In this document: piece by piece, positions 7,832 through 38,830 of the stretch
Layout of the letters: every line of letters begins with the position of its first letter
Numbering within the stretch: position 1 is the stretch's first letter
Origin: Moorella humiferrea
GTDB taxonomy: Bacteria > Bacillota > DSM-521 > Neomoorellales > Neomoorellaceae
Length of the DNA: 64,000 nucleotides
Direction: 5' to 3'
Assembly: GCF_039233145.1 (NCBI RefSeq)
Contig: NZ_CP136419.1
Span: 1,586,001-1,650,000, forward strand
Program-made: the position numbers and the translations under genes
The notes under the pieces: model-generated
The model's database searches: none
Told to the model about the DNA's origin: nothing
Seen by the model: only the letters and a program-made list of their open reading frames with translations

Positions 7832-8221
7832 TTATTTTGCCCGCCTTCTTCTTGCCGATTTACCTAGCCCCAAAGAAAGGAGATAAATAGCCATTTGATT
7901 AAGGCTAACACCATCTTCTTGCGCCTTGGCGGCAATAGCCCTGTGGAGGGATTTAGGAAGGCGTACAGTAAACTTACCGCTATATTTTTCATTGTTATCC
8001 GGTTCGGGAATATCTCGTTGTAACGCCAAAGCGGTTTCTATCCAACCCCTTTTGGCATCCTCCAGATTAGCCAGGGCCTCAGCCGGAGTTTCCCCGTCCG
8101 ACATACAACCTGGCAAAAGGGGTATGCTGGCCAGCCATCCGCCGCCCTCCTCCTCTTTAAGGCGGCGAAGGGATACCTCATAGTTGAGGTTAAGATAGTA
8201 ATCTAATGTTTTATCACGCAT
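7832..8221 (-). CDS. HicB-like protein (orphan antitoxin or regulator)
   Basis: 129 residues from MRDKTLDYYL with GGAAGG at 8 bases. N-terminal HicB fold (YEVSLRRLKEEEGGGWLASI, PLLPGCMSDGETPAEALANL) and a C-terminal ribbon-helix-helix (FTVRLPKSLHRAIAAKAQED, GVSLNQMAIYLLSLGLG). In HicAB pairs it neutralises the HicA RNase and represses its own operon. No HicA-like small double-stranded-RNA-binding gene is visible next to it. The relic of an IS605 right end abuts its ribosome site. Confidence 0.85.
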   Translation of the reverse strand: MRDKTLDYYLNLNYEVSLRRLKEEEGGGWLASIPLLPGCMSDGETPAEALANLEDAKRGWIETALALQRDIPEPDNNEKYSGKFTVRLPKSLHRAIAAKAQEDGVSLNQMAIYLLSLGLGKSARRRRAK

Positions 8222-8235
8222 CAGATTTCCCTTCC

Positions 8236-8362
8236 GTGAACTATCCCTCCCAAACACATCCGTGGTTAGGGAGGGGTTTCGGTAGTAACTCCCGCTTCAT
8301 CGTAACCCCAACGGGTTAGCTCCACAGGCGTAACGTCCCGAGGTTCCCACGATAGGAAAGCT
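8236..8362 (-). mobile_element. Relic of IS200/IS605 right end with TnpB guide-RNA (reRNA/omega RNA) scaffold
   Basis: On the minus strand the block reads GTGGGAACCTCGGGACGTTA, then CGCCTGTGGAGCTAACCCG, GTTACGATGAAGCGGGAGTT. It ends with the hairpin CCCTCCC..GGGAGGG and ATAGTTCAC. This is the typical right end of tnpB-bearing IS605 elements, from which the TnpB guide RNA is made. No tnpB or tnpA is present. The base after GTTCAC begins the ribosome site and start of the HicB-like gene, so a guide copied from here would match that start region. Confidence 0.7.
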
Positions 8363-8430
8363 TAAAAAATTTTCCATCGCTCAGTCTACTTTTGCCGGCA
8401 CTGATGGCTTTATGTGTTATTTCAATGACA

Positions 8431-8451
8431 AAGCACCGGCGCACCGGTACT
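8431..8451 (-). terminator. Possible terminator after the HEPN gene
   Basis: GTACCGGTGCGCCGGTGC on the minus strand can fold and is followed by TTTG, directly after the HEPN stop. The T-run is short, so termination is uncertain. Confidence 0.35.
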
Positions 8452-8853
8452 TTATTCATCTCTCAAATTCTCGGAAATGTTGTTGTAAATGGCTTCCGCC
8501 ATTTCAATGGCCTTTTTTGCATCTTCTTGAGTTGCTTCAGGCCAGTCGCCAGGGTAACGTCCTTCAGTAACCCAGTTACTTAGCCATTCAAGTTCCATTT
8601 CGGAAAAGGCAGCCTTATTTTCAGCCGGTAAAATTTCGACAAGATACTCCAGGTCATGTTTATATGAAAACTTTATCCCCATGCTGATAAGAATTGCTTT
8701 CAGGCTCTTTTCAGCGCACTGTTGCGCCAGGTAGCAGGCCAAACCATATTCAGGCCCTTCCTCATCCCCTAATGTTAGCCTTGCTACCCGTAAGTCTCCC
8801 TTGGCCCTTTTCAACCATCTAAGGGCTTCCTGTTTCCTTTCCTCATTGTTCAT
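8452..8853 (-). CDS. HEPN-domain protein (toxin partner of MNT)
   Basis: 133 residues starting MNNEERKQEA; the ATG overlaps the end of the MNT gene by 11 bases. HEPN fold signatures: QQCAEKSLKAILISMG, YKHDLEYLVEIL and EGRYPGDWPEAT. HEPN proteins of this kind are RNases held in check by an adjacent minimal nucleotidyltransferase that AMPylates them. Co-directional and coupled with 8843-9157. Confidence 0.87.
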   Translation of the reverse strand: MNNEERKQEALRWLKRAKGDLRVARLTLGDEEGPEYGLACYLAQQCAEKSLKAILISMGIKFSYKHDLEYLVEILPAENKAAFSEMELEWLSNWVTEGRYPGDWPEATQEDAKKAIEMAEAIYNNISENLRDE

Positions 8854-9157
8854 ACAGCACCACCCCTTCTTTAAGGGCTGGATGATAAACGGTCCACCAC
8901 GAGTCTTTATGCCTGCTAATATCAGCAGGATTGGCAACTATAATATCTTTAGGCACTTTAAAATCCCGTAGTTCTTTACGAATTGCCACTTGCATCTGCC
9001 GTTTTTGTTCCCGGGCGCAGTCCATAACGACCAGAATATCTACGTCGCTGTCAGGTCCAGTTTCTCCCCTCGCCCAGGAGCCGAAAACTATTATCTTTTC
9101 GGGATTAAATTTCTCCTGTATACGTTTCACCATAGACTGTACTAATTTTTCATCCAT
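8843..9157 (-). CDS. Minimal nucleotidyltransferase (MNT antitoxin)
   Basis: 104 residues from MDEKLVQSMV behind GGGAGGG. The polymerase-beta-like active site is GSWARGETGPDSDVDILV, with the GSxARG and SDxD motifs; C-terminal EGVVLYEQ. Family members add AMP to the partner HEPN toxin. It is first in a two-gene operon driven by the promoter at 9208-9236. Confidence 0.88.
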   Translation of the reverse strand: MDEKLVQSMVKRIQEKFNPEKIIVFGSWARGETGPDSDVDILVVMDCAREQKRQMQVAIRKELRDFKVPKDIIVANPADISRHKDSWWTVYHPALKEGVVLYEQ

Positions 9158-9207
9158 AATTGTTCCCTCCCAGGCCAGGAGCATTAAGTGCAACCTCTCT
9201 CATCACC

Positions 9208-9236
9208 ATTTTACCCCAGGTCTACCAGTTTATCAA
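9208..9236 (-). promoter_or_regulatory. Promoter of the MNT/HEPN operon
   Basis: Minus strand: -35 TTGATA (9231-9236), 17-bp spacer starting AACTGGTAG, -10 TAAAAT (9208-9213). The start codon lies about 50 bases downstream. The same -35, -10, spacing and spacer start occur upstream of the HerA operon at 18235-18263. Confidence 0.75.
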
Positions 9237-9324
9237 CATTACCTCAACGTTACCTGCTATACTCCCCTGATCTTATAAACCCCTGCCTTTTACCATCCAT
9301 TCTCCCATCCAAGCCTTCAGTCCT

Positions 9325-9466
9325 TTGCTTCCGGCCTTAACTGTAAAATTTGCCGCCCGGCCGTGAGGCAATGGCGACCCAGCACTCAAGGAAATTTAGT
9401 GCTGGGCCGGGCCGAGGTATAAATGGAGGGGACCCACCCGGAGTGCGGGGCGGAGGCCGTTTATGC
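9325..9466. repeat. GC-rich dispersed repeat, copy A (left part, split by IS66)
   Basis: Matches the copies at 18490, 37255 and 42003, with shared cores CTTCCGGCCTTAAC, TGCCGCCCGGCCG, GAGGNATAAATGGAGGGG and CGGAGGCCGTTTATGC. It stops exactly at GTTTATGC, the 8-bp duplication of the IS66 insertion, and resumes at 13433. This copy also holds an extra GCCCAGCACTAAATTTCC-type hairpin. Confidence 0.8.
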
Positions 9467-9541
9467 GTAAGCGTCAAATACAACCCACCTTTTGCCGAAG
9501 AATAAATAACCCCCACCTTGCCTAAGTGGGGGCAAACAAGC

Positions 9542-10727
9542 TTAATTATCCATCCGGCAGACATGAGGCAGGGTTTTCGACCACGGTAGGAGTTCATCCA
9601 GGGCATCTTTGTCCTTAATGTCCATGTTGGGAAGTCTTTCAAAGAGGTAAATGAGGTAGTGGAATGGATTTAACCCGTTTTCCTTGGCCGTTTCTATAAT
9701 GCTGTAGGTAATGGCACTGGCTTTAGCACCCCGCGGGGTGTTGGCAAACAACCAGTTCTTGCGGCCGATGACAAAGGGCTTGATGGAGCGTTCGCTGCGG
9801 TTGTTGTCGAGTTCCAGACGCCCGTCCTGTAAAAAGGCGACGAGTTTATCCCATTGGTCCAGACAATAGTAAACCGCCCGCCCAAAGGCACTTTTAGGCA
9901 GCACCTGCGCTTTCTGCTTCTTAAGCCATGTTAAAAATTCGTCCAGGACGGGTTTACTGCGCACCTGGCGGAGATGATGGCGTTCTTCCGGAGTTTTGTC
10001 TTTAAGTTCGTGCTCTATGGCAAAAAGGCGATTACAGAACTCCAGCCCCTCCCGGGCGGCTACCGGTTTGTTACGTTTATCTTCCGGTAGAGCCTTTAGA
10101 GCTTCGTCGAACTTGCGCCGGGCATGGGCCCAGCAACCCACCAGGGTGACATTGGTAAGTCCATTGTAGCCGTCATAGCCGTCAACGTGTAAGTAGCCCT
10201 TAAAACCTTTGAGAAACCGGCAGGGGTGTTTGCCCGCCCGGGTGGTCTGGTAATCATAAAGGACAATTGACGGTCCTTCCCGCCCGGTACGGTAAAGCCA
10301 GAGATATGATTTGGTGGTGGCTTCCCGCCCGGGTTCCTGCAGCACCTGTAAGGTGGTCTCGTCGGCATGGAGGATGTCTCTTGTAAGCAGGTGTTCATGG
10401 AGACGGTCGTAAATAAGGGTTAAGTAGGTGTTAGCTCCATGAAGTACCCAGTTGGCCATTGTCTGCCGGGAAAGGTCTATACCCAAACCTTTAAACTGTT
10501 GCTCCTGGCGGTAGAGGGGTAAGCCTACCCCGTATTTCTGGGTCATGATATAGGCCAGGAGGGAGGGAGATAAGGGGCTTCCGGGAAGTACAGGCGCCGG
10601 CATCGGTGCCGTGACAACGGGGGTACTTATCTCTTCTTTCTCGCAGCGGCGGCAGGAATAGACGTAGCGCACATGTTTGACCACTTTCACCTGGGCCGGG
10701 ATAATTTTGAGCTCTTGCCGCACCTCG
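9542..10727 (-). pseudogene. tnpC: IS66 transposase TnpC, C-terminal part (disrupted)
   Basis: The frame from about [20 protein letters not shown] onward encodes the zinc finger (CRRCEKEE) and the DDE catalytic core: [20 protein letters not shown], and [20 protein letters not shown] holding the final Glu. The N-terminal part lies at 12177-12593. The IS3 insertion with CGAG duplication separates them, so the protein is not made whole. A start within the IS3 end (to 10759) could produce the isolated C-terminal part. Confidence 0.92.
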
Positions 10728-10834
10728 CGGATTAACCCCCGCAGATTGGACATATGCACCCGACATTAAGCTCTCTCGCAATTTTTCTTCAAGTTTTAAA
10801 GGGGCAAAGGCTTTCGAATACGCACCAATTTACG

Positions 10835-11719
10835 TCACACCCTCACGGGATGTCTGGGCTGCAATCCTGTCTCGATATGACGACGGTAAAACTTGGCCGG
10901 CGACAGGTAGTGCAAACTGGAGTGCAACCGGCGGTTGTTGTAACGGCTAACGAATTCTACGACCGCCTGATATGCCTCCGCATAGGTCCCAAACTCGCCC
11001 ATCGACAAGCATTCATCCTCAAGAAGCCGATGGTACGATTCGATATATGCGTTCATATTCGGTGTCTTGGGCGGTATTCTCTCGTGTAGGACATTCCATC
11101 GCTCACACTCCGATTCAAACAGATGACTTACAAACTGGGGTCCATTATCCGAACGGATGATGGGTAATGGTAAATTCCTTTGAAGAATCTGACGTTTCCA
11201 TAATGCTGCTCGAAAAGTTTCAACGGCATGTCTGGCTTCACAGGTTAGACCAATATGATAGCCCACAATCTGCCTGTCATAGACGTCAATGTACGACAGC
11301 ACAAAGAAAAACCGGTCTTCTCCTGCAATGTACCCGTACTTCACATCGACCTCCCAGAGCTGGTTTGGCGCTGTGATAGTGCGGTTCTGGGCCAAATTCC
11401 GCGGGTGTTTCCGACGGAGGTTCCGTTGTGGCCGCAGAATATCCAGTTCCTTACACAGGCGGTATACCTTTTTCTCGTTCACCACCAGCTCATGATCTTG
11501 TCGAAGCATATGAGTGAGCTTACGGTACCCGTAGGCGTAACCATCACCGGAAATAGACTCCATAATCCATTCCTTAATCTGTTCATCACTTACCTTGCGG
11601 CCGCCCATAGTCAGTGAATGACCAGGAAACGGACGTCCACCTGAAGTGGTATGCGGTTTTGGTTCATTTGTTAATTGATAATAATAGGTGGATCGGGAAA
11701 CCCCCACTATGCGCAGCAC
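10835..11719 (-). CDS. IS3-family transposase OrfB (integrase core), copy 1
   Basis: 294 residues as an independent frame. The rve/DDE core shows WEVDVKYGYI (Asp), IRSDNGPQF (Asp) and NAYIESYHRLLEDE (Glu); an HTH_21 region precedes it (SGDGYAYGYRKLTHMLRQDH). The same frame extends upstream past MLRIVGVS, so the active product is probably OrfAB made by -1 frameshifting at the A7 run near the end of orfA. Confidence 0.93.
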   Translation of the reverse strand: MLRIVGVSRSTYYYQLTNEPKPHTTSGGRPFPGHSLTMGGRKVSDEQIKEWIMESISGDGYAYGYRKLTHMLRQDHELVVNEKKVYRLCKELDILRPQRNLRRKHPRNLAQNRTITAPNQLWEVDVKYGYIAGEDRFFFVLSYIDVYDRQIVGYHIGLTCEARHAVETFRAALWKRQILQRNLPLPIIRSDNGPQFVSHLFESECERWNVLHERIPPKTPNMNAYIESYHRLLEDECLSMGEFGTYAEAYQAVVEFVSRYNNRRLHSSLHYLSPAKFYRRHIETGLQPRHPVRV

Positions 11720-11763
11720 GAGAGTAGCGTTGTACCCGGCTGTGATCCACTTGTGCGCAATGG

Positions 11764-12105
11764 CTACTTTATCTGCAAGTGAGGGTTGGCTTTTTTTAAT
11801 AGGTCACGTAATATAGCAATTTCAAGGTCTTTTTCGCCCAGAAGTTGCTTTAGATGGGTATTCTGTTTGTCTAACTCACGGTTCTCTGCAACGAGTCGGG
11901 CGTGTTCCTGCTGAGTAACGTGGGTGGCGTTTCCCTTTGGGCTACTGCCTTGCATGGGTTGGCCGGCTTTGTACTGACGAACCCATCGGCTGACAATATT
12001 CGGCCGGATATCATACTTCCGAGCAACGACAGAATTATTTCCGGCAGCGATGGCCTGTTCGACGACCTGGCGCTTGAACTCTAGGGTAAATTTCCGACGT
12101 TCCAC
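11764..12105 (-). CDS. IS3-family OrfA (HTH protein), copy 1
   Basis: 113 residues. N-terminal HTH_Tnp_1 (MERRKFTLEFKRQVVEQAIA, SVVARKYDIRPNIVSRWVRQ) and a C-terminal leucine zipper (LVAENRELDKQNTHLKQLLG). It binds IS ends and supplies the N-terminus of the OrfAB fusion. TTA AAA AAA GCC near the end is a slippery site at which a -1 shift leads into SQPSLADKVA and then OrfB. Confidence 0.93.
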   Translation of the reverse strand: MERRKFTLEFKRQVVEQAIAAGNNSVVARKYDIRPNIVSRWVRQYKAGQPMQGSSPKGNATHVTQQEHARLVAENRELDKQNTHLKQLLGEKDLEIAILRDLLKKANPHLQIK

Positions 12106-12176
12106 TTGAACAACCTCCTGACCTTATAGTCTCATGAATTTGGAAGATTGTCCAATCTAATTTCGGGGCTTAAGAG

Positions 12177-12593
12177 CTCGGTGCTCATCTCATGTAAAGG
12201 ACCGCCACAGGCAGGACAGACCTGCTCTTCTTCCGGCAGGCGGTGCTCTACTACTTCTACCGGCAGATCTTCCAGGTTCATCTCCCGGCGGGTACGCCCT
12301 TTACGGCGCTGGTAGGTGATGGTTTCTAAATCAGGTTCTCTTTCTTCCGGCCGGGCTTCCACTTCCGCCTCATTAAAAAGCAAGAGCTGCTCAGGTAAAG
12401 GTTCAGTCCGTTCGCTGGAAACACCGAATTGCCGCTTTTTACTCAAACGAAACTGTTCCATAAACCAGTTTAGCTTGGCGGTCAGTTCCGCGTTTTGTTG
12501 TTCCAGCTGCATACATAGCTTTTCCAGCTGAACACAGCGCTCTTGCAGCTCTTCTATAGTCATGGCAGCGATAGATTGCGAAGTAGTATTCAT
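12177..12593 (-). pseudogene. tnpC: IS66 transposase TnpC, N-terminal part (disrupted)
   Basis: The frame starts MNTTSQSIAAMTIEELQERC and holds the coiled coil LEKLCMQLEQQNAELTAKLN, FRLSKKRQFGVSSERTE and the zinc finger CPACGGPLHEM. IS66 sequence ends at STE; residues after that (LLSPEIRLDNLPNS) come from the IS3 end. A longer frame to 12641 adds residues translated from a terminator-like hairpin and lacks support. Confidence 0.9.
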
Positions 12594-12601
12594 AAATAAA
12601 A

Positions 12602-12624
12602 AATTCGACGAAACTCGTCGAATT
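12602..12624 (-). terminator. Hairpin just before tnpC inside IS66
   Basis: AATTCGACGA-gtt-TCGTCGAATT has 10-bp arms and is followed on the minus strand by TTTTTATTT, then the tnpC ATG 9 bases on. It has the form of an intrinsic terminator between tnpB and tnpC and could limit transposase synthesis. Confidence 0.6.
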
Positions 12625-12673
12625 CCTCTAGAATCAACCACAAAGTGAAAATATTTCTTTCTGGCGATTCCTA

Positions 12674-13030
12674 TTACACGATGGTGCGTGCTTTTACCTC
12701 GGGATGGGCTTTAGGCTGTTTTAAGGGGAGACCGTCAAGCAGCCAGCGGAGTTCCCGGCGGCTTATGGTGATGGTGGAAGAAGCGGTTCCTCCCGGCCAT
12801 AGGAATTTGCCCTTCTCCAGCCGGCGGTAATAAAGCCAGAACCCATTGTGCTCCCAGTGGAGGATCTTTAGTTTATCCCTATTGCGGTTACAGAAAACGA
12901 AAAGGCAAGAAGAGAAGGGGTCCAGCTCGAACCCTTCCTTGACCAGCACCGCTAACCCGTCAATGGACTTGCGTAAATCTGTGGCACCGCAGGCGAGATA
13001 AACCCGGTCGATGCCTGTTTCGTTTAGCAT
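12674..13030 (-). CDS. tnpB: IS66 accessory protein TnpB
   Basis: 118 residues, the normal IS66 Orf2 size. Typical opening YLACGATDLRKSIDGLAVLV, central LFVFCNRNRDKLKILHWEHN and GFWLYYRRLEKGKFLWP. It is required for IS66 transposition by unknown mechanism. Its start overlaps the end of tnpA by 7 bases, indicating coupling. This IS66 TnpB is unrelated to the IS605 nuclease of the same name. Confidence 0.95.
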   Translation of the reverse strand: MLNETGIDRVYLACGATDLRKSIDGLAVLVKEGFELDPFSSCLFVFCNRNRDKLKILHWEHNGFWLYYRRLEKGKFLWPGGTASSTITISRRELRWLLDGLPLKQPKAHPEVKARTIV

Positions 13031-13344
13031 AATGCTATCAGCGCCTTAATCACCTGAGAAAGCAGGGTGGGATCAAAGCCGGGTCTTACCTCAATGGTGG
13101 CCGGTCCTATTTTGACCAATAGAGCTTGTTCTCGGGAACCTTTCTGGCTTATTTCTACCGGCAGCCACCGGTTTGTTATCACCGGGGAAACTTCATTCTG
13201 GTTTTTATATTTCCGCAGCCAGTACCATAATTGCCTGGGGCTGACGCCTTCTTGTGTGGCGCACCACTCCTTGACACTCTGTCCGCTCTTCTGGTACGCG
13301 GTTATCCGGTCCTCCCACAACTTTTGCCGTTCGGCTTTGGTCAT
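13024..13344 (-). CDS. tnpA: IS66 accessory protein TnpA
   Basis: 106 residues: HTH-like N-terminus with WEDRITAYQKSGQSVKEWCA and SPRQLWYWLRKY, then a small beta domain (LLVKIGPATIEVRPGFDPTL). First gene of the IS66 operon, ribosome site AGGAGG ahead. Probably binds the element ends. Confidence 0.93.
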   Translation of the reverse strand: MTKAERQKLWEDRITAYQKSGQSVKEWCATQEGVSPRQLWYWLRKYKNQNEVSPVITNRWLPVEISQKGSREQALLVKIGPATIEVRPGFDPTLLSQVIKALIALC

Positions 13345-13432
13345 AATAAATAACCTCCTCAGAGTATTTTCTGAAGAGGATTATCTCCTAAAGTTGGGTA
13401 TGATGCCAAGGTGGGTTGTATTTGACGCTTAC

Positions 13433-13560
13433 GTTTATGCCGCAGGCCGTACCCTTGCCGGACCGGCCAGGGCGGCGGTATAATCCGAGGCCAGCCGGAA
13501 GGCCAGGCTTTAAATTAAGGCAGCATGTACGCTTTAGCGTTCCTGCTGCCAACCGCGTCA
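13433..13560. repeat. GC-rich dispersed repeat, copy A (right part)
   Basis: Begins with the GTTTATGC duplication, then CGCAGGCCGTACCCTTGCCG, GGGCGGCGGTATAAT and the hairpin GCAGCATGTACGC-TTTA-GCGTTCCTGCTGC. The last part of the full repeat (second hairpin) is missing; the sequence passes into the 3' end of the methyltransferase gene. Confidence 0.8.
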
Positions 13561-14667
13561 ATCTGTTAGAATTAAATCTACCTCACCCGGCTTTGGTCCG
13601 TGATCCCCGAAGAGAGCTGTTTGAGGTTGACGCATAAATGGCTCATGCATCCGGTGGATACGCTTTCTAGAAAAAATTTCCCGCAGTACTTCTTCTGTTA
13701 CCTGCAAAGTGAACTCTCTGGCATCTGTACGCACATAGATGACAGCATCTGGGGCAAGAAGTTCTGCCGCGGCCGCAAATACAGTTTGCAGAAGTTCGCG
13801 GTACTTTTTTTGGTTGTTATACCGGCTTTCTTTTGCCCACTGCTCGCTGACCTCCCTAGGAAACTGTGGCCCTCCCAGCAACCAGTATCGAAGCCAGTGG
13901 TCGTAGTAATAACAGGTAAGGCCGTAATATGGAGGCGAGGTAAGCAATAAGCGATACCTTCTTCCTGGAGGAGGGGTGTGAGCTGGTAGGACATCGCGCG
14001 CGTCCCCCAATTGAATTTCGCCTGTGCCGTACCCTTTAAGCGTGCCCCACGCGTAGCGCCACCGAATACGCTTAGCCAAGAATTCCACTGGTTCAAACTG
14101 AGGAGGTTGCATCCCACGCTCTTTCCACCAGCGAATCGAGTAATCCGGTGCCATGGATTTTTGCTGGCGCATCTGGTTAGAAAGAGCTTGGCCGCGCTTG
14201 CCGTGGAGGTAAAGAAGTATAAAGGCCATTAAGGTGCAATCAACGGGATCTTCCCTCCATATGAGAAGATCCCGGGCCGCTAAGAGAAAACGACGAACGG
14301 GCGCTGAAAAACACCAATGATAAAACTCGGGTAGTGCCTCTGCCTGTTCCTCGTATTCTCCCGCCTTCATCCCCACCTCTTCAAGACGCCGAATAACTGC
14401 TTCAACATCCGCAGGAGCAATTTTAACCCTACCGTATAACCATCCAACCGGGTTGATTTCCACACCGAACCCCCAACGTCCCAATGCCATAGCTACAGAT
14501 ACACTTGTCCCCCGCCCGGCAAAAGGGTCAAGAACCCCGTCTCCTGGTGCAGTGTAGGAATGCACAATTCTTAATACGAAGTCCACCGGAAACATCGCGT
14601 AATAGGGGCCGAAAGAAAGCCAACGTGCAGCGCTACGTGGTACAGTTGGCGTTTCTAGTCTAGTCAT
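13558..14667 (-). CDS. DNA methyltransferase of the HerA-NurA operon
   Basis: 369 residues. The SAM-binding motif LDPFAGRGTSVSVA is near the N-terminus (about 46-59), followed by FGVEINPVGWLYGR. The catalytic motif TSPPYYGLTCYY comes late (about 235-250), a SPPY type expected of amino-methylating (N4-cytosine or N6-adenine) enzymes. No target-recognition domain could be named. The start overlaps the NurA stop by 8 bases, so it is the last gene of a coupled three-gene operon. It may protect host DNA from the HerA-NurA complex; that is inference. Confidence 0.87.
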   Translation of the reverse strand: MTRLETPTVPRSAARWLSFGPYYAMFPVDFVLRIVHSYTAPGDGVLDPFAGRGTSVSVAMALGRWGFGVEINPVGWLYGRVKIAPADVEAVIRRLEEVGMKAGEYEEQAEALPEFYHWCFSAPVRRFLLAARDLLIWREDPVDCTLMAFILLYLHGKRGQALSNQMRQQKSMAPDYSIRWWKERGMQPPQFEPVEFLAKRIRWRYAWGTLKGYGTGEIQLGDARDVLPAHTPPPGRRYRLLLTSPPYYGLTCYYYDHWLRYWLLGGPQFPREVSEQWAKESRYNNQKKYRELLQTVFAAAAELLAPDAVIYVRTDAREFTLQVTEEVLREIFSRKRIHRMHEPFMRQPQTALFGDHGPKPGEVDLILTD

Positions 14668-16024
14668 GACTGCACACCAACCCCCTAACTAACTCCTCTA
14701 GGACGCGCATTCCTAGTCCCCTAGCAATTGTTGCCCGTGCATGTGCTTCTACGAGCGGTACCAGAGCATCAGGATATCGTGACGACACCAGAAGGTCTAG
14801 CAACGCAAGTACCTCTCCAAGTCTCGGAAACTGCTCAGCGCGGGCCACCGAAAGATCGGCGTCAGCTTCCCGGAAAAATGGTGTCATTCCAACAATCCGC
14901 GCCCCCGAACGCGTTTTATAAAAGAACTTCCTACCAAAGTAAGTCTGGTATCCATACGGCCGCTCACTCCCGGATAGGACTATATGAGTTTTAATATATC
15001 GGTCGGTCAGAAGCAAGGCTGTTCCTGGAGGAAATAGTCCCGGTGAGCCGCCGACGTGTGTATCTAGACGGATAAAATGGTCCATGAAAGCACCGGATTT
15101 CTCGATTCCCAAGAGCAAAAGATCAAAGCCAGTAACTTTTTTAACCACTTCGTTTATTCGCCGAAGTTCCTTAGTAATTGCATCTTTCAACCAGGCCGGA
15201 TGCCCGAATACCGCGAGTGGTCCGTCGATTATAAGAGCGATCTGAGACAAACTATCTAGCCAGCCCTTTTGCTCCAAAGTTCTCAGGAAGTTAACCAGAA
15301 GAAGCCGTTCCACAACCTGCATAACCTCGCCATATGCTTCGCCACTTGGCCCTGTGGGATTAAAGGCTTCATGGATCCGAAGTCCATCCGTAGAATAAAG
15401 GGGACGATTTAAGCTACAGGAGCATACGTAGGCACCGGGCTTACGTTCCAACGTCCGATCCTCTTTCTTACAATCTTCATATGGACACTGAGCATCTCTG
15501 GTGTAGCTTTTATACTCAAGTAGAGCTTGATAGGTTTCGAGTAAGGACTCGCCTTCTTCAACCGTCCGTATATCATTCAATGCCTCGAAAAGCTGGCGAC
15601 GAAAAGAGTGTTTGGGGTCCAGATCGTCCCTGCGGTGCACATTGCAGCCAGGTAATACAAACTCACCTGCTCCCGTTCGCACCGTTCGATCGACTCTTGG
15701 CGGCGGCGGAAACTTTTCCTCGGACAAATACTTAATTTGTTCAAGATCCAAAAGGACCAAAGCTATCGATACAAAGCCTACTTCCGCTCCTGGAAAGCCG
15801 TTTTCTACAGGTACCCTCGTTGAGCTTCCATCAATTGCAACAACAAAACGCGGAAGGCACTCGGGATGCAACCCTTCTACACGAGTTAATCCTTCCGCAT
15901 TATCTGCAAGTGCTCTTTGCTCAGGCGGGCGAACAATACACTGCCCAAGAAATCCTTGAACCTTTTCGCTGTTAGCTATTCTCGAGAGAGCGATATAACT
16001 AGTGTGTTCGCTCTCGTAAGGCAT
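14660..16024 (-). CDS. nurA: NurA-domain nuclease
   Basis: 454 residues from the ATG at 16024 (AGGAG upstream; a GTG two codons earlier is possible). NurA motifs: FVVAIDGSSTRVPV (first metal-binding Asp), IALIIDGPLAVFG (second), LLLGIEKSGAF and YGYQTYFGRKFFYKT. NurA is a Mn-dependent 5'-3' exonuclease/endonuclease that works inside the HerA ring. An inserted Cys cluster (CPYEDCKKED..YVCSC, about 190-215) may bind zinc and is unusual. It follows HerA by 57 bases and overlaps the methyltransferase. Confidence 0.87.
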   Translation of the reverse strand: MPYESEHTSYIALSRIANSEKVQGFLGQCIVRPPEQRALADNAEGLTRVEGLHPECLPRFVVAIDGSSTRVPVENGFPGAEVGFVSIALVLLDLEQIKYLSEEKFPPPPRVDRTVRTGAGEFVLPGCNVHRRDDLDPKHSFRRQLFEALNDIRTVEEGESLLETYQALLEYKSYTRDAQCPYEDCKKEDRTLERKPGAYVCSCSLNRPLYSTDGLRIHEAFNPTGPSGEAYGEVMQVVERLLLVNFLRTLEQKGWLDSLSQIALIIDGPLAVFGHPAWLKDAITKELRRINEVVKKVTGFDLLLLGIEKSGAFMDHFIRLDTHVGGSPGLFPPGTALLLTDRYIKTHIVLSGSERPYGYQTYFGRKFFYKTRSGARIVGMTPFFREADADLSVARAEQFPRLGEVLALLDLLVSSRYPDALVPLVEAHARATIARGLGMRVLEELVRGLVCSHD

Positions 16025-16081
16025 TACCACTCAACTCCTGCTTAAAATACTTGTACTCCCGGTTTCTTCCTAACCCACCCT

Positions 16082-18157
16082 TTAAGGTACTGTGAACCGG
16101 TCAACCTGAATCGGTACTACGTAAGGGTTAGAGAGCGTCTTAAGCCGCAGAAAACCCTGATCCTGCGCCCTCAGGATGGACGCCTGAAAATCTGCAAAGT
16201 CATAAAACTTCGCCAGTTCCCTTACTTCTTCAGTGTTATTGAGATGCCCGATAAACCAATTACTGGTATTTTTTAGAACACTCTTGTGGATATTCGAAAC
16301 TTCCTGTGTCGCATAGGCCAACCCTATATGTAACTTTGCCCCCTCTTTAGCCACACGGAGCCATATGCTCCGTGGGTCCTGCGGGTCAAACTCTGCACCG
16401 CTCGGCAGAAGGTTATGTGCTTCTTCCACATATACAATTACATCTGGCGGATTTTTACCCGTGGAAAAAATTTGCTGGTGAATTCGAAAGAGGCTCTCCA
16501 TTACGCGGTCAGCTTGCCTTTGGTTAAACTCAGGGTTACCAAGAGATTGGTCAATAATTACCAGCCGTCCTTTGTGGAGGTCATCTATAATCATTTCCGC
16601 AAAGTCTCGGTCAACAGTATCAGTATGGAACTTCATGGCACGGCGAACCAACATTGGACCATTCTTCTGTGCAAACATTCCTAGAATCCCGAGAAGGTCC
16701 TCTTCCGCCCAAGCAGAACCTGAGGAGCTTTTATTTATATACTCATTGTTGAAGGTCTTATATATCGGATCATGCACAATAAACTCGTACAGAAAAATCA
16801 GTGCTTCGGCAAGTTGCTCCCAGGTAACTCTATCACCTCTGCTAACATTTTCAAGCACCGTCGCGGCAAATTTCGCAATTTGCTCTTTCTCGCTCTGCTT
16901 CATAGCTTTAATAAAATCGCTTCCGAATAATCCTTTTCCACGGGGAATATGATTTCTGGGGACAGCGAATCCAGCCTTAGCGAGTAGAGCACGATATGCC
17001 AAACACCGGCGTCGGTACCTAGTCACCGTACCGGGATCAGCTCCCTCTCTTGGTTCCTCCAGCGATGCACTTCTAAAAGCCTCTACGTAGCGTATCCCTT
17101 TCTCACTGGCTAGTTCGTTATCAATAATCGATTTTCCCAAAGCAAGCATCCTATCCTCATAAAAATTTACTTTCATCAACCGCCTATCAGAGTCGTTAGG
17201 ATGAGCTTCAGTACCATACGTTACGATGTCTTCTCTTACACCACTTGGATGAAGTTGCCATAGGTTCTTTAGCGCCCCACGGTCCTGAACGTTTTCGTTC
17301 GCATACTCTCCGTTATAGTCAAAGATAATTTGGCCGATTCTGCCATGATCCAGATTCCTGTACCGTAGCTCGAACACTGATCTAACCATGATTTTAACGG
17401 TATTTGATTTGCCCGAACGCGTCATACCAAAGAGAGCGGTTTTTTGACGGAGCAAATCCGTCGGATTGAGGTTGACCCTTACCTCATCAATCCCATGTCC
17501 CTTGCGGTCTGAAGATGCGTATCTAACTCTTCCAATCTCCACTTTCTCCTCGCGAAGTGGGTGATCAGCAAGACGGGTTGGATCGCGGTAGTTGGCAATA
17601 ATCTCAAGAGCCTTTTTTGTAGCTTTGTAGACTTTCAGGGCATACGCGGCGTAGTAATTAGAAATATCTGAGCCAAAACGCCGTACCAGATCGCCGTTAT
17701 CTAGGCGGTCCACGTAAAATGTACCCAGTACCCGGCACTTTAAACCTGCAAAAGATAGTATATTTCGCGTATGTAAATCAACCTGATCGCGATCCCAGTA
17801 ACGTTCCTGCTCAGCTGTTCGCTGGGCCGCCTCAACCCGGATCTTAAAAGCTTCTGAGTCGTGCGGTAAAGAAGCGGGGCCTTGAACCCGGAGTAAAATT
17901 ACACTCGCATCTTCATTGTTCCATTCGTAGGTAGGCCCCAGTTGTTTTCTTGTAGCCACCAGGAAACACTGACTTGGCAAACCACCTACTTGCTCTCGGT
18001 AATGGTCGTGAACTTGTACAATTGCCTCATCATATGATAGGGAAACAACTTCTCCTACATAGCAGTCGTTCTGGATTAAAGGGTCTAGAAGTTCAGCTAC
18101 TCGCCTTTTTTCACGCTCTTCCCTTGCTTCTTCAATAGCCTTAATAACATCGGACAA
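16082..18157 (-). CDS. herA: HerA-family DNA translocase ATPase
   Basis: 691 residues, TTG start behind GGGAGG. N-terminal beta-barrel of the HerA/ATP-synthase type (CYVGEVVSLSYDEAIVQVHD). Walker A FGMTRSGKSNTVKI at 243-256; Walker B VIVYVEEAHNLLPS; then WLRVAKEGAKLHIGLAYATQ, typical of HerA/FtsK hexameric DNA pumps. In archaea HerA with NurA resects DNA ends. Here it leads an operon with NurA and a methyltransferase, transcribed from 18235-18263. Confidence 0.92.
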   Translation of the reverse strand: MSDVIKAIEEAREEREKRRVAELLDPLIQNDCYVGEVVSLSYDEAIVQVHDHYREQVGGLPSQCFLVATRKQLGPTYEWNNEDASVILLRVQGPASLPHDSEAFKIRVEAAQRTAEQERYWDRDQVDLHTRNILSFAGLKCRVLGTFYVDRLDNGDLVRRFGSDISNYYAAYALKVYKATKKALEIIANYRDPTRLADHPLREEKVEIGRVRYASSDRKGHGIDEVRVNLNPTDLLRQKTALFGMTRSGKSNTVKIMVRSVFELRYRNLDHGRIGQIIFDYNGEYANENVQDRGALKNLWQLHPSGVREDIVTYGTEAHPNDSDRRLMKVNFYEDRMLALGKSIIDNELASEKGIRYVEAFRSASLEEPREGADPGTVTRYRRRCLAYRALLAKAGFAVPRNHIPRGKGLFGSDFIKAMKQSEKEQIAKFAATVLENVSRGDRVTWEQLAEALIFLYEFIVHDPIYKTFNNEYINKSSSGSAWAEEDLLGILGMFAQKNGPMLVRRAMKFHTDTVDRDFAEMIIDDLHKGRLVIIDQSLGNPEFNQRQADRVMESLFRIHQQIFSTGKNPPDVIVYVEEAHNLLPSGAEFDPQDPRSIWLRVAKEGAKLHIGLAYATQEVSNIHKSVLKNTSNWFIGHLNNTEEVRELAKFYDFADFQASILRAQDQGFLRLKTLSNPYVVPIQVDRFTVP

Positions 18158-18234
18158 CTTACTCCCTCCCTATGCATAACGTTTCATTGCTTATGCAATT
18201 TCCTCCGGCACTGCGCTCCCCTATCTTTACCTCC

Positions 18235-18263
18235 ATTTTAGCCAAAGGCTACCAGTTTATCAA
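18235..18263 (-). promoter_or_regulatory. Promoter of the HerA-NurA-methyltransferase operon
   Basis: Minus strand: TTGATA (18258-18263), 17-bp spacer starting AACTGGTAG, TAAAAT (18235-18240). Start codon about 75 bases downstream. It shares both hexamers, spacing and spacer start with the MNT/HEPN promoter at 9208-9236. Confidence 0.75.
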
Positions 18264-18489
18264 GCTTCCTTAAATTCCCTAATCGTCAAGGACGTTATCC
18301 CGCACCTACAGTCTGAAACTTTCCTACCTCACTTCTTACACGCAAGCTTCTTAACCTGGGTAGAGTGTCGGCCTCCATTACTAACTTCCTACCTGCTAAA
18401 GTCCCGCACCTCATACTTAGCCATGTTAGATACCCCCCTTCTTGTTTTGGCTTTCGACCTATGACCTTCCAGTCTTAAATGCAAAGTAC
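18264..18489. other. Intergenic stretch upstream of the HerA promoter
   Basis: About 225 bases with no gene, hairpin or strong palindrome that I can support. It separates the shared promoter from repeat copy C. Confidence 0.5.
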
Positions 18490-18733
18490 AGTCGGCCAAC
18501 GGGGAGGTAAGGGCAGCCCGCATGGCCGGGCCGAGGAATAAATGGAGGGGACCAGCCCGGAGGGCGGGGCGGAGGCCGTTTATGCCGCAGGCCGCACCTT
18601 TGCCGGACTGGCCAGGGCGGCGGTATAATCTAAGGCTGGCCGGAAGGCCCGGAGGCTAAAATTAAGGCAGCAGGTGCGCGCAAGCCGCTCCTGCTGCCCA
18701 CCGCTGTTGCCTTACAAAAGGGCTCCCGCTACG
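18490..18733. repeat. GC-rich dispersed repeat, copy C
   Basis: Core GAGGAATAAATGGAGGGGAC, CGGAGGCCGTTTATGCCGCA, TTTGCCGGACTGGCCAGGGC and GGCGGTATAAT, then hairpin GCAGCAGGTGCGC..GCTCCTGCTGC. A diverged second hairpin has inner stem GGCC-gaa-GGCC where copy D has GCCC-gtaa-GGGC. The end touches the 3' end of the CpaE-like gene. Confidence 0.8.
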
Positions 18734-19882
18734 TCAGGCCGAAGGCCGTTTAGACGTTACGGCGACCACCCTCCACCTTACCCAAAACGGTTTCTTTTTC
18801 TCCCTGGCCTGGGGCAATACCGGCCGCAAAAGTTCTGTAAGTATTTCATCCGGCATACAGAAAGGATCGGGATGGTACGGCATCACATATGCTTTTAACT
18901 CCGGGATTCTCCTTATTTCCTTTACATCCCGTTCCGCCGGGGCAACCAGGGCCAGGCGGAATGAAGATAACGGCTCAATTTTTAGCAAGTCGCCCCAGCG
19001 CCACCTGGCGGCGCTAGCTACCAGGACGGCCAGGTTGGATCTAAAAGCCTCCCTGGCCCTCTTTTTGTCAGCTACACCTAAATCGCGGACAATATATTCA
19101 TACCTCCCGGCGCTCAACTCCGCCAAAAGCTCATCAAATATAAAATTACCATCCCCTTCTATGAATTTGTCAACCTCGGTTTTAGCAAAAGGAAACACAT
19201 CAAAGCCTTTTATACGCCAGGCTTTGCTTACCCGCCCGGGTCCTGCCTTGATAATTTTTAGGTAATCCTGCATTACCGGCTCCTGGCTGTCTTCCACCAG
19301 GGCTACATTATGGCCCTGCCTGGCTAAAAAAGCGCTTATGGCCAGGGCGGTATGGGTGCAGCCTAAACCCGGCGCGGCCCCGGCCACGGCAATAGTCACC
19401 ACCCCTACCGGTCGCTGCTCTATGACCACTTTTTCCTTTACCTGTTCTTCTTCAGTTAAGCCAGTCATGATATGCCACCTGGCAGCCTGGGCATAAGTAG
19501 CCGGGGTATTAGTAAGAGACTGAGCGACTAAATCTCCCCAGTCGGCCTCAACCGGGCCGTCTATTATGTCATACACCCCCAGCCCGACAAGCCTTGCCAC
19601 CGTCGCATCCCCCGGCTGCCTGCCGGGCGCCAGCAAGAATATCCTTGTATAGGGCCTGGCTATGCGGTAACCCTGGACAGCGGCCACCAGGTCCGGCCCC
19701 GGGCCGGCATCTATATCGAGGATCAGGGCGTCAGCCGCCACCCTGGCGGCAGATTGGAGGGCATTACGAATGCCAAAGGAATCCATAGTCCCGGCCTGGT
19801 CGTATACCACTTCGCCGTGTTCTTTCACGGCTTTTCTCACCTGCTCCGCCCTGGCCGGGGTAAGGATTAAAGCAAGTATCAT
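18734..19882 (-). CDS. CpaE/TadZ- or ParA-like P-loop ATPase
   Basis: 382 residues from MILALILTPA (AAAGGAG at 8 bases; the earlier ATG is inside that site). N-terminal receiver-like domain (ADALILDIDAGPGPDLVAAV, IFLLAPGRQPGDA). The C-terminal MinD/ParA domain has a degenerate Walker A, AGAAPGLGCTHTALAIS, lacking the usual GKGG lysines. The layout matches CpaE/TadZ, which place Tad pili. The Tad locus at 48-64 kb shows no CpaE, so this gene may serve it or a partition role. Its last residues read into repeat copy C. Confidence 0.72.
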   Translation of the reverse strand: MILALILTPARAEQVRKAVKEHGEVVYDQAGTMDSFGIRNALQSAARVAADALILDIDAGPGPDLVAAVQGYRIARPYTRIFLLAPGRQPGDATVARLVGLGVYDIIDGPVEADWGDLVAQSLTNTPATYAQAARWHIMTGLTEEEQVKEKVVIEQRPVGVVTIAVAGAAPGLGCTHTALAISAFLARQGHNVALVEDSQEPVMQDYLKIIKAGPGRVSKAWRIKGFDVFPFAKTEVDKFIEGDGNFIFDELLAELSAGRYEYIVRDLGVADKKRAREAFRSNLAVLVASAARWRWGDLLKIEPLSSFRLALVAPAERDVKEIRRIPELKAYVMPYHPDPFCMPDEILTELLRPVLPQAREKKKPFWVRWRVVAVTSKRPSA

Positions 19883-19944
19883 AATAACTACTCCTTTCAT
19901 TCACCTAAATTAACATCAAAAAATAATAAAGCCCGGTAAAAACC

Positions 19945-20082
19945 TGTATCTTCGGATAGGCACTATAGCCATATAGGGTTGCTCCGGCACTTTTACCATT
20001 TCCCTAGAGGTTTTTTATTTTCTCTGGTAGGATGTGGAACGATGAATGACGAATATAATTAAATAAGTCTTTTATTTACGTG
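19945..20082 (-). pseudogene. 5' end remnant of the HTH family gene
   Basis: The minus strand resembles the leader and first codons of 2644-3165 and 3780-4024: GTTCCACATCCTACCAGAG, then GTGCCGGAGCAACCC and TATATGGCTATAGTGCC, reading MPEQPYMAIVPI before the frame ends. The HTH is missing. It adjoins the flank of IS3 copy 2. Confidence 0.5.
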
Positions 20083-20157: not shown

Positions 20158-20499
20158 GTGGAACGTCGGAAATTTACCCTAGAGTTCAAGCGCCAGGTCG
20201 TCGAACAGGCCATCGCTGCCGGAAATAATTCTGTCGTTGCTCGGAAGTATGATATCCGGCCGAATATTGTCAGCCGATGGGTTCGTCAGTACAAAGCCGG
20301 CCAACCCATGCAAGGCAGTAGCCCAAAGGGAAACGCCACCCACGTTACTCAGCAGGAACACGCCCGACTCGTTGCAGAGAACCGTGAGTTAGACAAACAG
20401 AATACCCATCTAAAGCAACTTCTGGGCGAAAAAGACCTTGAAATTGCTATATTACGTGACCTATTAAAAAAAGCCAACCCTCACTTGCAGATAAAGTAG
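20158..20499 (+). CDS. IS3-family OrfA (HTH protein), copy 2
   Basis: 113 residues identical to the OrfA of copy 1, with ribosome site AGGAGG. HTH then leucine zipper. The run of seven A near 20465-20471 (TTA AAA AAA GCC) is the likely -1 frameshift site for OrfAB. Confidence 0.94.
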   Translation: MERRKFTLEFKRQVVEQAIAAGNNSVVARKYDIRPNIVSRWVRQYKAGQPMQGSSPKGNATHVTQQEHARLVAENRELDKQNTHLKQLLGEKDLEIAILRDLLKKANPHLQIK

Positions 20500-20543
20500 C
20501 CATTGCGCACAAGTGGATCACAGCCGGGTACAACGCTACTCTC

Positions 20544-21428
20544 GTGCTGCGCATAGTGGGGGTTTCCCGATCCACCTATTATTATCAATTAACAAATGAA
20601 CCAAAACCGCATACCACTTCAGGTGGACGTCCGTTTCCTGGTCATTCACTGACTATGGGCGGCCGCAAGGTAAGTGATGAACAGATTAAGGAATGGATTA
20701 TGGAGTCTATTTCCGGTGATGGTTACGCCTACGGGTACCGTAAGCTCACTCATATGCTTCGACAAGATCATGAGCTGGTGGTGAACGAGAAAAAGGTATA
20801 CCGCCTGTGTAAGGAACTGGATATTCTGCGGCCACAACGGAACCTCCGTCGGAAACACCCGCGGAATTTGGCCCAGAACCGCACTATCACAGCGCCAAAC
20901 CAGCTCTGGGAGGTCGATGTGAAGTACGGGTACATTGCAGGAGAAGACCGGTTTTTCTTTGTGCTGTCGTACATTGACGTCTATGACAGGCAGATTGTGG
21001 GCTATCATATTGGTCTAACCTGTGAAGCCAGACATGCCGTTGAAACTTTTCGAGCAGCATTATGGAAACGTCAGATTCTTCAAAGGAATTTACCATTACC
21101 CATCATCCGTTCGGATAATGGACCCCAGTTTGTAAGTCATCTGTTTGAATCGGAGTGTGAGCGATGGAATGTCCTACACGAGAGAATACCGCCCAAGACA
21201 CCGAATATGAACGCATATATCGAATCGTACCATCGGCTTCTTGAGGATGAATGCTTGTCGATGGGCGAGTTTGGGACCTATGCGGAGGCATATCAGGCGG
21301 TCGTAGAATTCGTTAGCCGTTACAACAACCGCCGGTTGCACTCCAGTTTGCACTACCTGTCGCCGGCCAAGTTTTACCGTCGTCATATCGAGACAGGATT
21401 GCAGCCCAGACATCCCGTGAGGGTGTGA
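20544..21428 (+). CDS. IS3-family transposase OrfB, copy 2
   Basis: 294 residues identical to copy 1 OrfB: HTH_21 region plus the rve core with Asp, Asp, Glu (WEVDV; IRSDNG; YIESYHRLLEDE). The open frame continues upstream into the overlap with orfA, so it is probably expressed as an OrfAB fusion. Both copies being intact and identical suggests recent activity. Confidence 0.94.
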   Translation: MLRIVGVSRSTYYYQLTNEPKPHTTSGGRPFPGHSLTMGGRKVSDEQIKEWIMESISGDGYAYGYRKLTHMLRQDHELVVNEKKVYRLCKELDILRPQRNLRRKHPRNLAQNRTITAPNQLWEVDVKYGYIAGEDRFFFVLSYIDVYDRQIVGYHIGLTCEARHAVETFRAALWKRQILQRNLPLPIIRSDNGPQFVSHLFESECERWNVLHERIPPKTPNMNAYIESYHRLLEDECLSMGEFGTYAEAYQAVVEFVSRYNNRRLHSSLHYLSPAKFYRRHIETGLQPRHPVRV

Positions 21429-36394: not shown

Positions 36395-37234
36395 TTATGC
36401 CACCTTATCCGCCGCCATGCCCGCCGCGTTGAATATGCGCTCCAGCACTTCTTCCACTTCGCTTAAGACTGCCATGATCGCCTTCAGGGCCGCCTTTGGG
36501 TCCCGGCCGGCGTAATGCTTGATGTACTCCCACCCGTGCCAGAGGTACCCTTTCGCCCCGTATAGCTCGCATAAAACGCAGGCCACCGTTTCCGCAATTA
36601 TCTCCTGGTCCTGGTGCTGGCCTCCTTTTAGCGGCCGGATGGTGTTATGGACCGCATGGGCCAGTTCGTGGAAGAATACGTCTACGTCGTGGGAATAAAG
36701 GATTACCTGCTTCTGCCCGGGCCGGAAAGCGCCGACGGCCTGGCCGGCAAAGGGTTGGTATTTCACCTCTAACCCGAACCGCCTGGCCACTTCATAAAGG
36801 GGCGGCAGTTCCGGCGGGGAATAATCAGCTTGCGGCAACGGCTCCCCTTCCGTATCTTCGTACCTAAAGACCGGCACTCCCCGGAAGCCGGTTACGATTA
36901 TTTTTTCCTCCTGTTTTTCTTCCCCGGTTTCCGGATCTATCACTTTCTGGATAACCTTCCTGGTCATCGGCGCCAGAATGTAAAAGGCCCTGGCTCCCTT
37001 CTTCACCTGCCTGCCGGCCTCCCGCCACTGCTGGTAGCCCCGGGCGTCCTCCGTCCCGGCGATGAGCATCAGCAGCCGGTTGCCCAGGCTCCACTTATCG
37101 CTCGGTTTGCCGTAGCCCGCCCGGGCGTTGATAAAGGTCCGCGCCGCCTTCTCCGGCAGTTCCCCACTCTGAAACATGGCCAGTAAACTATTCACTGCCT
37201 GCTTGACCTTGCTTTCCTCCAGTTTTACAGCCAT
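36395..37234 (-). CDS. ardC: ArdC-like antirestriction protein (ssDNA-binding domain plus zincin)
   Basis: 279 residues. N-terminal ArdC domain: FINARAGYGKPSDKWSLGNR, GTEDARGYQQWREAGRQVKK, GARAFYILAPMTRK. The C-terminal metallopeptidase-like part has FFHELAHAVHNTIR (HExxH) and EIIAETVACVLCELYG. ArdC proteins protect incoming single-stranded DNA during conjugation. Its ribosome site AAGGAGGCG is the edge of repeat copy D, so that repeat forms its leader. Confidence 0.9.
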   Translation of the reverse strand: MAVKLEESKVKQAVNSLLAMFQSGELPEKAARTFINARAGYGKPSDKWSLGNRLLMLIAGTEDARGYQQWREAGRQVKKGARAFYILAPMTRKVIQKVIDPETGEEKQEEKIIVTGFRGVPVFRYEDTEGEPLPQADYSPPELPPLYEVARRFGLEVKYQPFAGQAVGAFRPGQKQVILYSHDVDVFFHELAHAVHNTIRPLKGGQHQDQEIIAETVACVLCELYGAKGYLWHGWEYIKHYAGRDPKAALKAIMAVLSEVEEVLERIFNAAGMAADKVA

Positions 37235-37254: not shown

Positions 37255-37586
37255 TTTGGCCTTTCGGCCCTTGGCCTTCCGGCCTTAACAGACAAGCTTG
37301 CCGCCCGGCCGGGAGGCAAGGGCGGCCCGCAGGGCCGGGCCGAGGAATAAATGGAGGGGACCCGACCGGAGGGCGGGGCGGAGGCCGTTTATGCCGCAGG
37401 CCGGACCCTTGCCGGACCGGCCAGGGCGGCGGTATAATTCGAGGTTGGCCGGAAGGCCTGGAGGCTTAAAATCAAGGCAGCAGGTGCGCTTTAGCGCTCC
37501 TGCTGCCTACCGCTGTTGTCTTTATGATAAGGCCGCCGCTACGTTAGCCCGTAAGGGCTTAGGCGTTGCGGCGGCCCCCTATCCTC
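37255..37586. repeat. GC-rich dispersed repeat, copy D (longest)
   Basis: Contains CCTTCCGGCCTTAACAGACA, GCCGCCCGGCCGGGAGG, GAGGAATAAATGGAGGGGAC, CGGAGGCCGTTTATGCCGCA and TTGCCG-18-TATAAT (plus strand). Then hairpin GCAGCAGGTGCGC-ttta-GCGCTCCTGCTGC, and a long hairpin GGCCGCCGCTACG..CGTTGCGGCGGCC with inner GCCC-gtaa-GGGC. The left edge is the ArdC ribosome site; the right edge touches the small Cys-rich gene. Confidence 0.85.
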
Positions 37587-37789: not shown

Positions 37790-38806
37790 TCAAGTAGCAA
37801 CTGTTTCTAGCCTTTTTCCCCATATCACCTCGTAAGTGTGGGTGGCAAACAACTCCTGCACTTCAAACTGCATCCTCTTGACCGCCATTTCCAGGTAGGC
37901 GGGGTTCAGGTCAATATAAATGCTGTTTCTCCCCAACTGCTTTGCCGCCAGGGATGTGGTCCCGGACCCGCCGAAGGGATCCAGGACCGTGCCTCCAGGG
38001 GGACAACCTGCTAAGATACACGGTTTGATCAGGTCGAGAGGATAAACAGCAAAGTGGGCTTCCGAAAAAGGTTTGGTCGGTACAATCCACACTGAGCGTT
38101 TATTGCGCTTTTCCCTGGGTTGATACCGGGCATTGAAGCCGGTATAACGACGGTTACCTGTTTCAGCTTGTGTCCTGCGGCCGTTGTGGGGAATGCCTAT
38201 CACCGCTGCCGAACCCCGCGGGCTGTCGGGATCCCCGCTGACGGCATCTTCCTGGATAGCCTCGTAGTCGTAGTAATACCTCTCGGATTTGCTCAGGAGG
38301 AAGAGGTATTCGTGAGCCTTGGTAGGCCTGTCAACCACGCTTTCAGGCATGGCGTTGGGCTTGTACCAGATAATATCGCTGCGGAGGTACCAGCCGGCAT
38401 TGCGGAGGGCGAAGGCCACCGCCCAGGGAATACCCGCCAGGTCTTTGTTTTTCAGACCAGGAACCCTGCCCCTGTTCGCCTGCATATGATAGAGACGGCG
38501 CCCGGTCCCCTTCTGGCACCTCTTTTCATCCCACTTTCCCTCTTTACCCGGGCTGGCGTAGCAGTCGCCCAGGTTTAACCAGAGAGTCCCGTCTGGCCGG
38601 AGCACCCGCCTGACCTCGGAAAAAATACCTACTAGCCTAGCAATATATTTTTCCGGGGTTTCTTCCCCTCCCACCTGGCCCTCCATCCCATAATCGCGCA
38701 GTCCCCAGTAGGGCGGGGAAGTAACGCAACAGTTGACGCTTTCTGCCGGCAGCCCTTTAAGGATCTCCAGGGCATCACCAAGGAAGAACTTGTGATGGGT
38801 ATTCAT
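37790..38806 (-). CDS. Site-specific DNA methyltransferase, orphan (N4-cytosine or N6-adenine)
   Basis: 338 residues from MNTHHKFFLGDALEILKGLP (ribosome sites at GGAGG upstream; an ATG seven codons earlier is possible). Catalytic CCVTSPPYWGLRDYG near residue 30, SAM-binding VLDPFGGSGTTSLAAKQLGR near residue 280: IV before I, a beta-class order. No restriction enzyme nearby; such orphan enzymes on conjugative elements guard against host restriction. Only 4 bases follow the gene at 38831. Confidence 0.92.
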   Translation of the reverse strand: MNTHHKFFLGDALEILKGLPAESVNCCVTSPPYWGLRDYGMEGQVGGEETPEKYIARLVGIFSEVRRVLRPDGTLWLNLGDCYASPGKEGKWDEKRCQKGTGRRLYHMQANRGRVPGLKNKDLAGIPWAVAFALRNAGWYLRSDIIWYKPNAMPESVVDRPTKAHEYLFLLSKSERYYYDYEAIQEDAVSGDPDSPRGSAAVIGIPHNGRRTQAETGNRRYTGFNARYQPREKRNKRSVWIVPTKPFSEAHFAVYPLDLIKPCILAGCPPGGTVLDPFGGSGTTSLAAKQLGRNSIYIDLNPAYLEMAVKRMQFEVQELFATHTYEVIWGKRLETVAT

Positions 38807-38830
38807 CCTCCTTACACCTCCCGCCATAAA

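Follow-up and report, generated by a model that had tools for sequence, protein, structure and literature searches.

The stretch of DNA analysed here, hereafter called the window, is 64,000 nucleotides long and belongs to Moorella humiferrea. It carries the genes for a HerA-family DNA translocase, a NurA-family nuclease and a DNA amino-methyltransferase (MTase), which form one operon on the minus strand (Table 1). The ORF list and Pfam searches showed all motifs to be intact, and the matches of the trio to DUF87, NurA and N6_N4_Mtase were all above the curated cut-offs. For NurA, two start codons came into consideration. Alignment of relatives showed the ATG, corresponding to M3 of 'MPY', to be the family-conserved start; this codon was therefore taken as the start of the gene, yielding a gap of 57 bases between HerA and NurA. 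The overlap between NurA and the MTase gene was exactly 8 bases. The initial annotation, made from this single copy, had described three genes coupled by such a gap and overlap, and the ORFs agree with it as long as the ATG start is used. It had also placed the operon under one promoter. A promoter-like site is indeed present upstream of HerA, but such matches occurred at chance frequency (7 found versus 5.4 expected from shuffled sequence), so that the single promoter is unproven. Scans for promoters and terminators gave no signal above chance, and no RNA element was detected by Rfam search of positions 8000-20000.

Table 1. Features of the HerA-NurA-MTase locus, numbered from the first nucleotide of the window
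Feature	Position	Strand	Remarks
HerA-family hexameric DNA translocase	16082..18157	-	691 aa, TTG start, RBS GGGAGGG; Pfam DUF87 4.5e-11
NurA-family nuclease with four-Cys ribbon-like insert	14660..16030	-	454 aa from ATG 16024; 456 aa from GTG 16030; Pfam NurA 4.5e-10
Alpha-type DNA amino-methyltransferase	13558..14667	-	369 aa, DPFxGxG then SPPY; Pfam N6_N4_Mtase 1.1e-15
Zinc-ribbon-like insert of NurA with four Cys (residues ca. 182-207)	15410..15487	-	Cys conservation across loci
Promoter-like site TTGATA-17-TAAAAT, upstream of HerA	18235..18263	-	10/12 consensus matches, not above shuffled expectation
Dispersed element repeat, upstream border of trio	18502..18772		copies 37311-37580 and 42067-42275; 85-86% identity, blastn
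Partial copy of dispersed repeat, downstream border of trio	13432..13556		84.5% over 129 alignment columns, blastn

The motifs read from the single copy were found to be conserved over the 56 complete loci described below. For HerA, the intact Walker motifs comprise G244, K250 and S251 (Walker A) and E578/E579 (Walker B), among which G244, K250, E578 and E579 were present in 56/56 loci. The acidic motifs claimed for NurA are represented by D67 (56/56) and D269 (55/56). In the MTase, DPFxG and SPPY were invariant, D47, S244, P245, P246 and Y247 all being present in 56/56. The Cys cluster of NurA, previously regarded as unusual, proved to be real and a trait of the family, with four Cys residues mostly conserved among the sequences having the respective column (C182 in 52/56, C187 in 51/55, C203 in 56/56 and C205 in 41/41).

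The order of domains in the MTase, with the SAM motif followed by a central region and then SPPY, is that of the alpha type, and the best PDB match of its structural model (pLDDT 90.4) was E. coli Dam. In an alignment of 36 sequences, 43 residues were invariant. The central region, including 'LSNQMRQ', W180-W181 and W203-Y205, was conserved like the remainder of the protein. Across some 20 phyla, strong conservation was seen for residues 141-205 (window positions 14053-14247), the expected place of a variable recognition domain. The MTase alignments gave no sign of a hypervariable target-recognition region, which is unusual for a restriction-modification system. As judged from this conservation, the MTases of the trio family may share one target motif.

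The window represents a conjugative element, with genes for a large serine recombinase (764-2371), TrbL, a VirB4/TraG-like protein and a coupling protein. Two genomes of the same genus, G302 and G212, carry the recombinase and the T4SS transfer backbone in collinear order at 85-95% identity, but neither has the stretch containing the trio, in agreement with the cargo position previously proposed. Copies of a repeat, at most about 270 bases long and dispersed in the element, border its cargo segments and may be recombination sites for cargo exchange. The trio has such copies on both sides, with others elsewhere in the element, and is thus a cargo cassette. The genes next after the trio are those of an IS66 element, read from its ORFs as described before, and a CpaE-like gene. 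A two-ORF IS3-type element is present in two copies with identical translations (10835-12105 and 20158-21428), one of which sits inside the IS66 transposase gene adjoining the trio. The HEPN/MNT pair noted nearby was confirmed, HEPN by Pfam and MNT by NTP_transf_2. The element also carries a second DNA MTase, of the beta class (37790-38827), near a gene for an ArdC-like anti-restriction protein (36398-37234). HerA of the window's kind was found in 1/11 genomes of the genus, and the NurA gene in 6/299 genomes of the phylum. More distant HerA genes were observed in other settings. In G098 of the same genus (L120:7296-11652), an operon encodes DruA (Pfam DruA 1e-92), a protein of 385 aa and a distant HerA whose best solved relative is TdpA (1e-24); the 385 aa protein has NurA-like motifs by eye and no profile match, and the operon could be a further HerA-NurA module linked to modification or defence. 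In G261 (L121:2813-12846), a more distant HerA lies between ORFs that by eye resemble a type I restriction-modification locus.

Recurrence of the three-gene order in other genomes had been named beforehand as a check on the defence proposal, and its absence as a refutation; the trio proved to recur widely. By a HerA profile scan of 84,980 species genomes, 326 relatives were identified, of which the best 80 were fetched; ORFs were called in these and other loci, and then searched with the HerA, NurA and MTase profiles. In the clade of the window, the third gene belongs to the same MTase family, and HerA, NurA and MTase were found in identical order and on the same strand in 56/56 complete loci, covering about 20 phyla plus a plasmid of a haloarchaeon; with the same order in every one, a chance neighbourhood was rejected. 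The spacing between NurA and MTase was most often -4 bases. Wherever the locus continued, NurA adjoined HerA of the window's kind. The identity matrices of the three proteins correlated with each other (0.91 for HerA-NurA, 0.81 for NurA-MTase and 0.77 for HerA-MTase), indicating that the three genes have for the most part been passed on together. The tblastn search with NurA gave plasmid matches in a haloarchaeon (with HerA-NurA-MTase in the order of the window), in Nostocales cyanobacteria and in Deferribacter (with the order MTase-HerA-NurA), and also matches on Vibrio phages. A single-sequence NurA search of viral contigs gave no match, and alignment-based searches found more. In one Deferribacter locus (L015:3141-6939), HerA is split by an IS200/IS605 TnpB element, and the adjoining MTase and NurA remain. 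Branches of the tree mixed phyla, and the HerA proteins of L040 (Poribacteria) and L046 (Gammaproteobacteria) were 96% identical, which reflects horizontal transfer or, in the case of metagenome bins, possibly misbinning.

Outside the clade of the window, HerA-NurA was associated with MTases of other classes. A D12/Dam-class MTase, located upstream or in convergent direction, adjoins HerA-NurA at 18 loci, and a beta-class N6_N4 MTase lies upstream at 7 loci, both classes being confirmed by Pfam on examples. These sister-clade loci indicate that some MTase is nearly always present, and that its type is replaceable. At least four changes of MTase class were counted on the HerA tree (97 rows), with clustering stronger than in all shuffles, the number of changes being soft because the tree was a quick one and some rows had long branches. 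Loci in which no MTase was detected were mostly cut by a contig end, and intact HerA-NurA pairs with no MTase nearby were those of the cyanobacterial plasmids L012-L014 and of L082. In L012, L013 and L014, where no MTase was found, the gene for a small HTH regulator precedes HerA-NurA, and the pair may depend on an MTase of the host or be controlled in another way. HerA or NurA was split and the MTase intact in L015, L016, L067, L073, L080, L087 and L113. That broken copies have mostly lost HerA or NurA and kept the MTase fits the logic of restriction-modification; metagenome frameshifts may contribute.

As to solved structures, the best PDB match of HerA was TdpA (8wet), with an E-value of 1.1e-29 by profile and 1.7e-15 by single sequence, the next relative giving 2.6e-18 by profile. 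Sequence searches with NurA, single or profile, detected no credible solved relative, and the TdpAB nuclease was recognized only via the predicted fold. For the AlphaFold model of NurA (pLDDT 89), the first-ranked Foldseek match was 8wfd_G, the nuclease chain of TdpAB. VIA-align gave a Z score of 19.8 with 303 residues aligned for this chain, versus 12.9 for Sulfolobus NurA and 11.9 for Deinococcus NurA, all repair NurAs being at or below 12.9. Among solved structures, motor and nuclease are thus both closest to TdpAB, the part of the phosphorothioate-based Tdp system that carries out restriction. In Tdp, self DNA is reported to be marked by TdpC, and phage DNA that has no phosphorothioate to be degraded by the TdpAB complex. 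Searches of plasmid and viral sequences with a TdpA fragment gave general HerA matches only, or none.

The trio is unnamed in PADLOC 2.0, NCBIfam 20 and PHROGs 4. PADLOC gave only generic HerA and MTase_II matches, with none for NurA at E-values up to 1; NCBIfam gave no match near the cut-offs for the trio proteins, and PHROGs none for NurA. Membership in BREX, DISARM, MADS or Dnd was rejected, as no partner genes of these systems were seen. The cognate effectors of DUF4297-HerA, SIR2-HerA and other PADLOC systems were not found beside the HerA of the trio, whose partner is NurA. In the literature searched, no description of the trio as a defence system was found; earlier mention of such operons is possible, above all in the survey of HerA neighbourhoods that Iyer et al. 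reportedly made in 2004. In other genomes, the 140 ORFs flanking the trio matched 89 PADLOC families, versus 5 for 115 control ORFs from random regions of Bacillota; these counts are of families, not proteins, and the enrichment is indicative only because the families matched by a protein overlap and the control comes from Bacillota alone. The matches include Kiwa, Septu, type II and type III restriction and other defence families. By Pfam, no recurrent transfer genes were detected in the flanks in other genomes.

Taken together, the trio is most likely a Tdp-like system, based on methylation and absent from the catalogues searched. The reading as restriction-modification-like defence, in which HerA-NurA would degrade DNA without the mark of the MTase, was proposed from one copy; it is now supported by the recurrence, the replacement of the MTase, the kinship to TdpAB, the cargo position on a conjugative element and the defence-gene neighbours, and we estimate its probability at about 0.72. 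The linkage of a nuclease to a DNA MTase with intact motifs, as in restriction-modification, was found in 56/56 loci. The MTase would methylate host DNA, at adenine N6 or cytosine N4, within a presumed target. HerA, as a hexameric ring, would form a complex with a NurA dimer and pump double-stranded DNA into it, and the putative nuclease would degrade the pumped DNA unless the methyl mark were sensed. Foreign DNA without the mark would be destroyed, and this predicted restriction should act against phages or plasmids. The trio would then be the methylation counterpart of Tdp. Sensing of the mark by the HerA motor during pumping is suggested, because the trio lacks a specificity subunit and its engine is found with unrelated MTases and, in Tdp, with a sulfur mark. 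More tentatively, and with somewhat less than an even chance, HerA-NurA could be a general 'read-while-pumping' restriction engine, its motor sensing marks on backbone or bases of the threaded DNA; hence its association with at least three unrelated MTases and with the phosphorothioation of Tdp, neither a sequence-specific endonuclease nor a specificity subunit being needed.

Other functions of the same genes were considered. HerA-NurA might prepare or pump DNA for donation, a role proposed for NurA-TdtA of ICETh1, with the MTase protecting the moving DNA. On ICETh1 of Thermus thermophilus, tdtA and nurA are needed for DNA donation, and the operon encodes a type IIG enzyme, a NurA-like nuclease, the HerA/FtsK-like TdtA and an N4/N6 methylase (PMC5365140, PMC7767461); the trio of the window is also located within a conjugative element. 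This function is, however, weakened by the related elements of G302 and G212, which keep their T4SS backbone at 85-92% identity without the trio, and by the trio flanks elsewhere, which are not tied to transfer genes. The trio operon also has no type IIG gene. Donation, for which ICETh1 is the nearest experimental precedent, is kept as the main alternative, at a low probability. A role in the repair of DNA breaks, by end resection of the archaeal type with methylation guiding or protecting the repair, would agree with the proven resection activity of HerA-NurA in archaea and Deinococcus (PMC9960219, PMC12977600). The initial annotation had taken archaeal HerA-NurA as the precedent; the two families are indeed the same, but the nearest relative is Tdp, not archaeal repair HerA-NurA. 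Archaeal repair was rejected as the main reading on account of the TdpAB-like nuclease, nearer to TdpAB than to any repair NurA, the accessory distribution within the genus and the coupling to an MTase. Furthermore, the trio has spread horizontally across phyla, and no mre11/rad50-like gene was recognized by inspection among the ORFs of the window. Repair is thus quite improbable.

DUF4297-HerA and SIR2-HerA act by triggered effectors (PMC11291478, PMC11514479), and similarly infection might trigger HerA-NurA for killing of the cell or degradation of all DNA, the MTase being a regulator or an antitoxin-like guard. Against such abortive or regulated defence, NurA has the fold of a DNA nuclease, not that of an NAD or other toxin effector, and the close association with three unrelated DNA MTases suggests that the guard is a mark on the DNA; its probability is as low as that of repair. 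Least probable, with a very remote chance, is modification-dependent defence of type IV-like mode, in which HerA-NurA would attack DNA bearing certain marks and the MTase would have another role. A fixed mark could be written by a conserved MTase that lacks a hypervariable region, but the presence of such an enzyme in the operon would turn self DNA into a target.

If the restriction-modification-like reading is correct, the catalogues searched lack a broad class of ATP-driven restriction systems, distributed over about 20 phyla on chromosomes, plasmids, phages and conjugative elements. The MTases of this class would figure there as solitary or type II enzymes, and its nuclease among the repair genes. 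The recurrence of HerA-NurA beside unrelated modification enzymes would then be explained, and the sensing of marks on DNA by a translocating ring would become directly testable. The trio is also relevant to the transfer of DNA into its many hosts.

The trio can be compared with several known systems. By published description, ICETh1 is likewise a conjugative element that combines a NurA-like nuclease with a HerA/FtsK-like ATPase and an N4/N6 methylase; it differs in including the type IIG enzyme, in the order NurA-TdtA-methylase and in a NurA of 377 aa (PMC5365140, PMC7767461). DUF4297-HerA and SIR2-HerA share with the trio a HerA-family motor employed in phage defence; their effector partners are unrelated to NurA, they have no MTase, and their HerA is more distant in sequence. 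The archaeal and Deinococcus HerA-NurA have both protein families in common with the trio, and presumably the same ring-plus-dimer machine, but theirs are repair genes without an MTase, whereas the trio is accessory cargo and not part of the core genes of its lineage; their NurA is also the more distant in structure by the Z scores given above. The logic of a nuclease and a DNA MTase is that of type II and type III restriction-modification. The trio differs from these in having no stand-alone site-specific endonuclease of known restriction fold, its nuclease being of the NurA/RNase H-like fold and coupled to an ATP-driven HerA ring, and in having no separate specificity gene. Tdp (TdpABC) is a phosphorothioate-based anti-phage system of thermophiles, its three genes forming a compact module with a single modification enzyme. 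The trio resembles Tdp in its motor and nuclease and in this compact organization. The HerA of the trio is longer (691 versus 586 aa), and its NurA has the additional four-Cys insert and exceeds the solved chain by about 100 aa. No phosphorothioation gene of the TdpC type, as judged by Pfam and by the modelled fold of the third protein, was seen in the trio operon; the third gene encodes instead an N6_N4_Mtase with a Dam-like fold, so that the modification enzyme is a SAM-dependent DNA amino-methyltransferase in place of a phosphorothioation enzyme.
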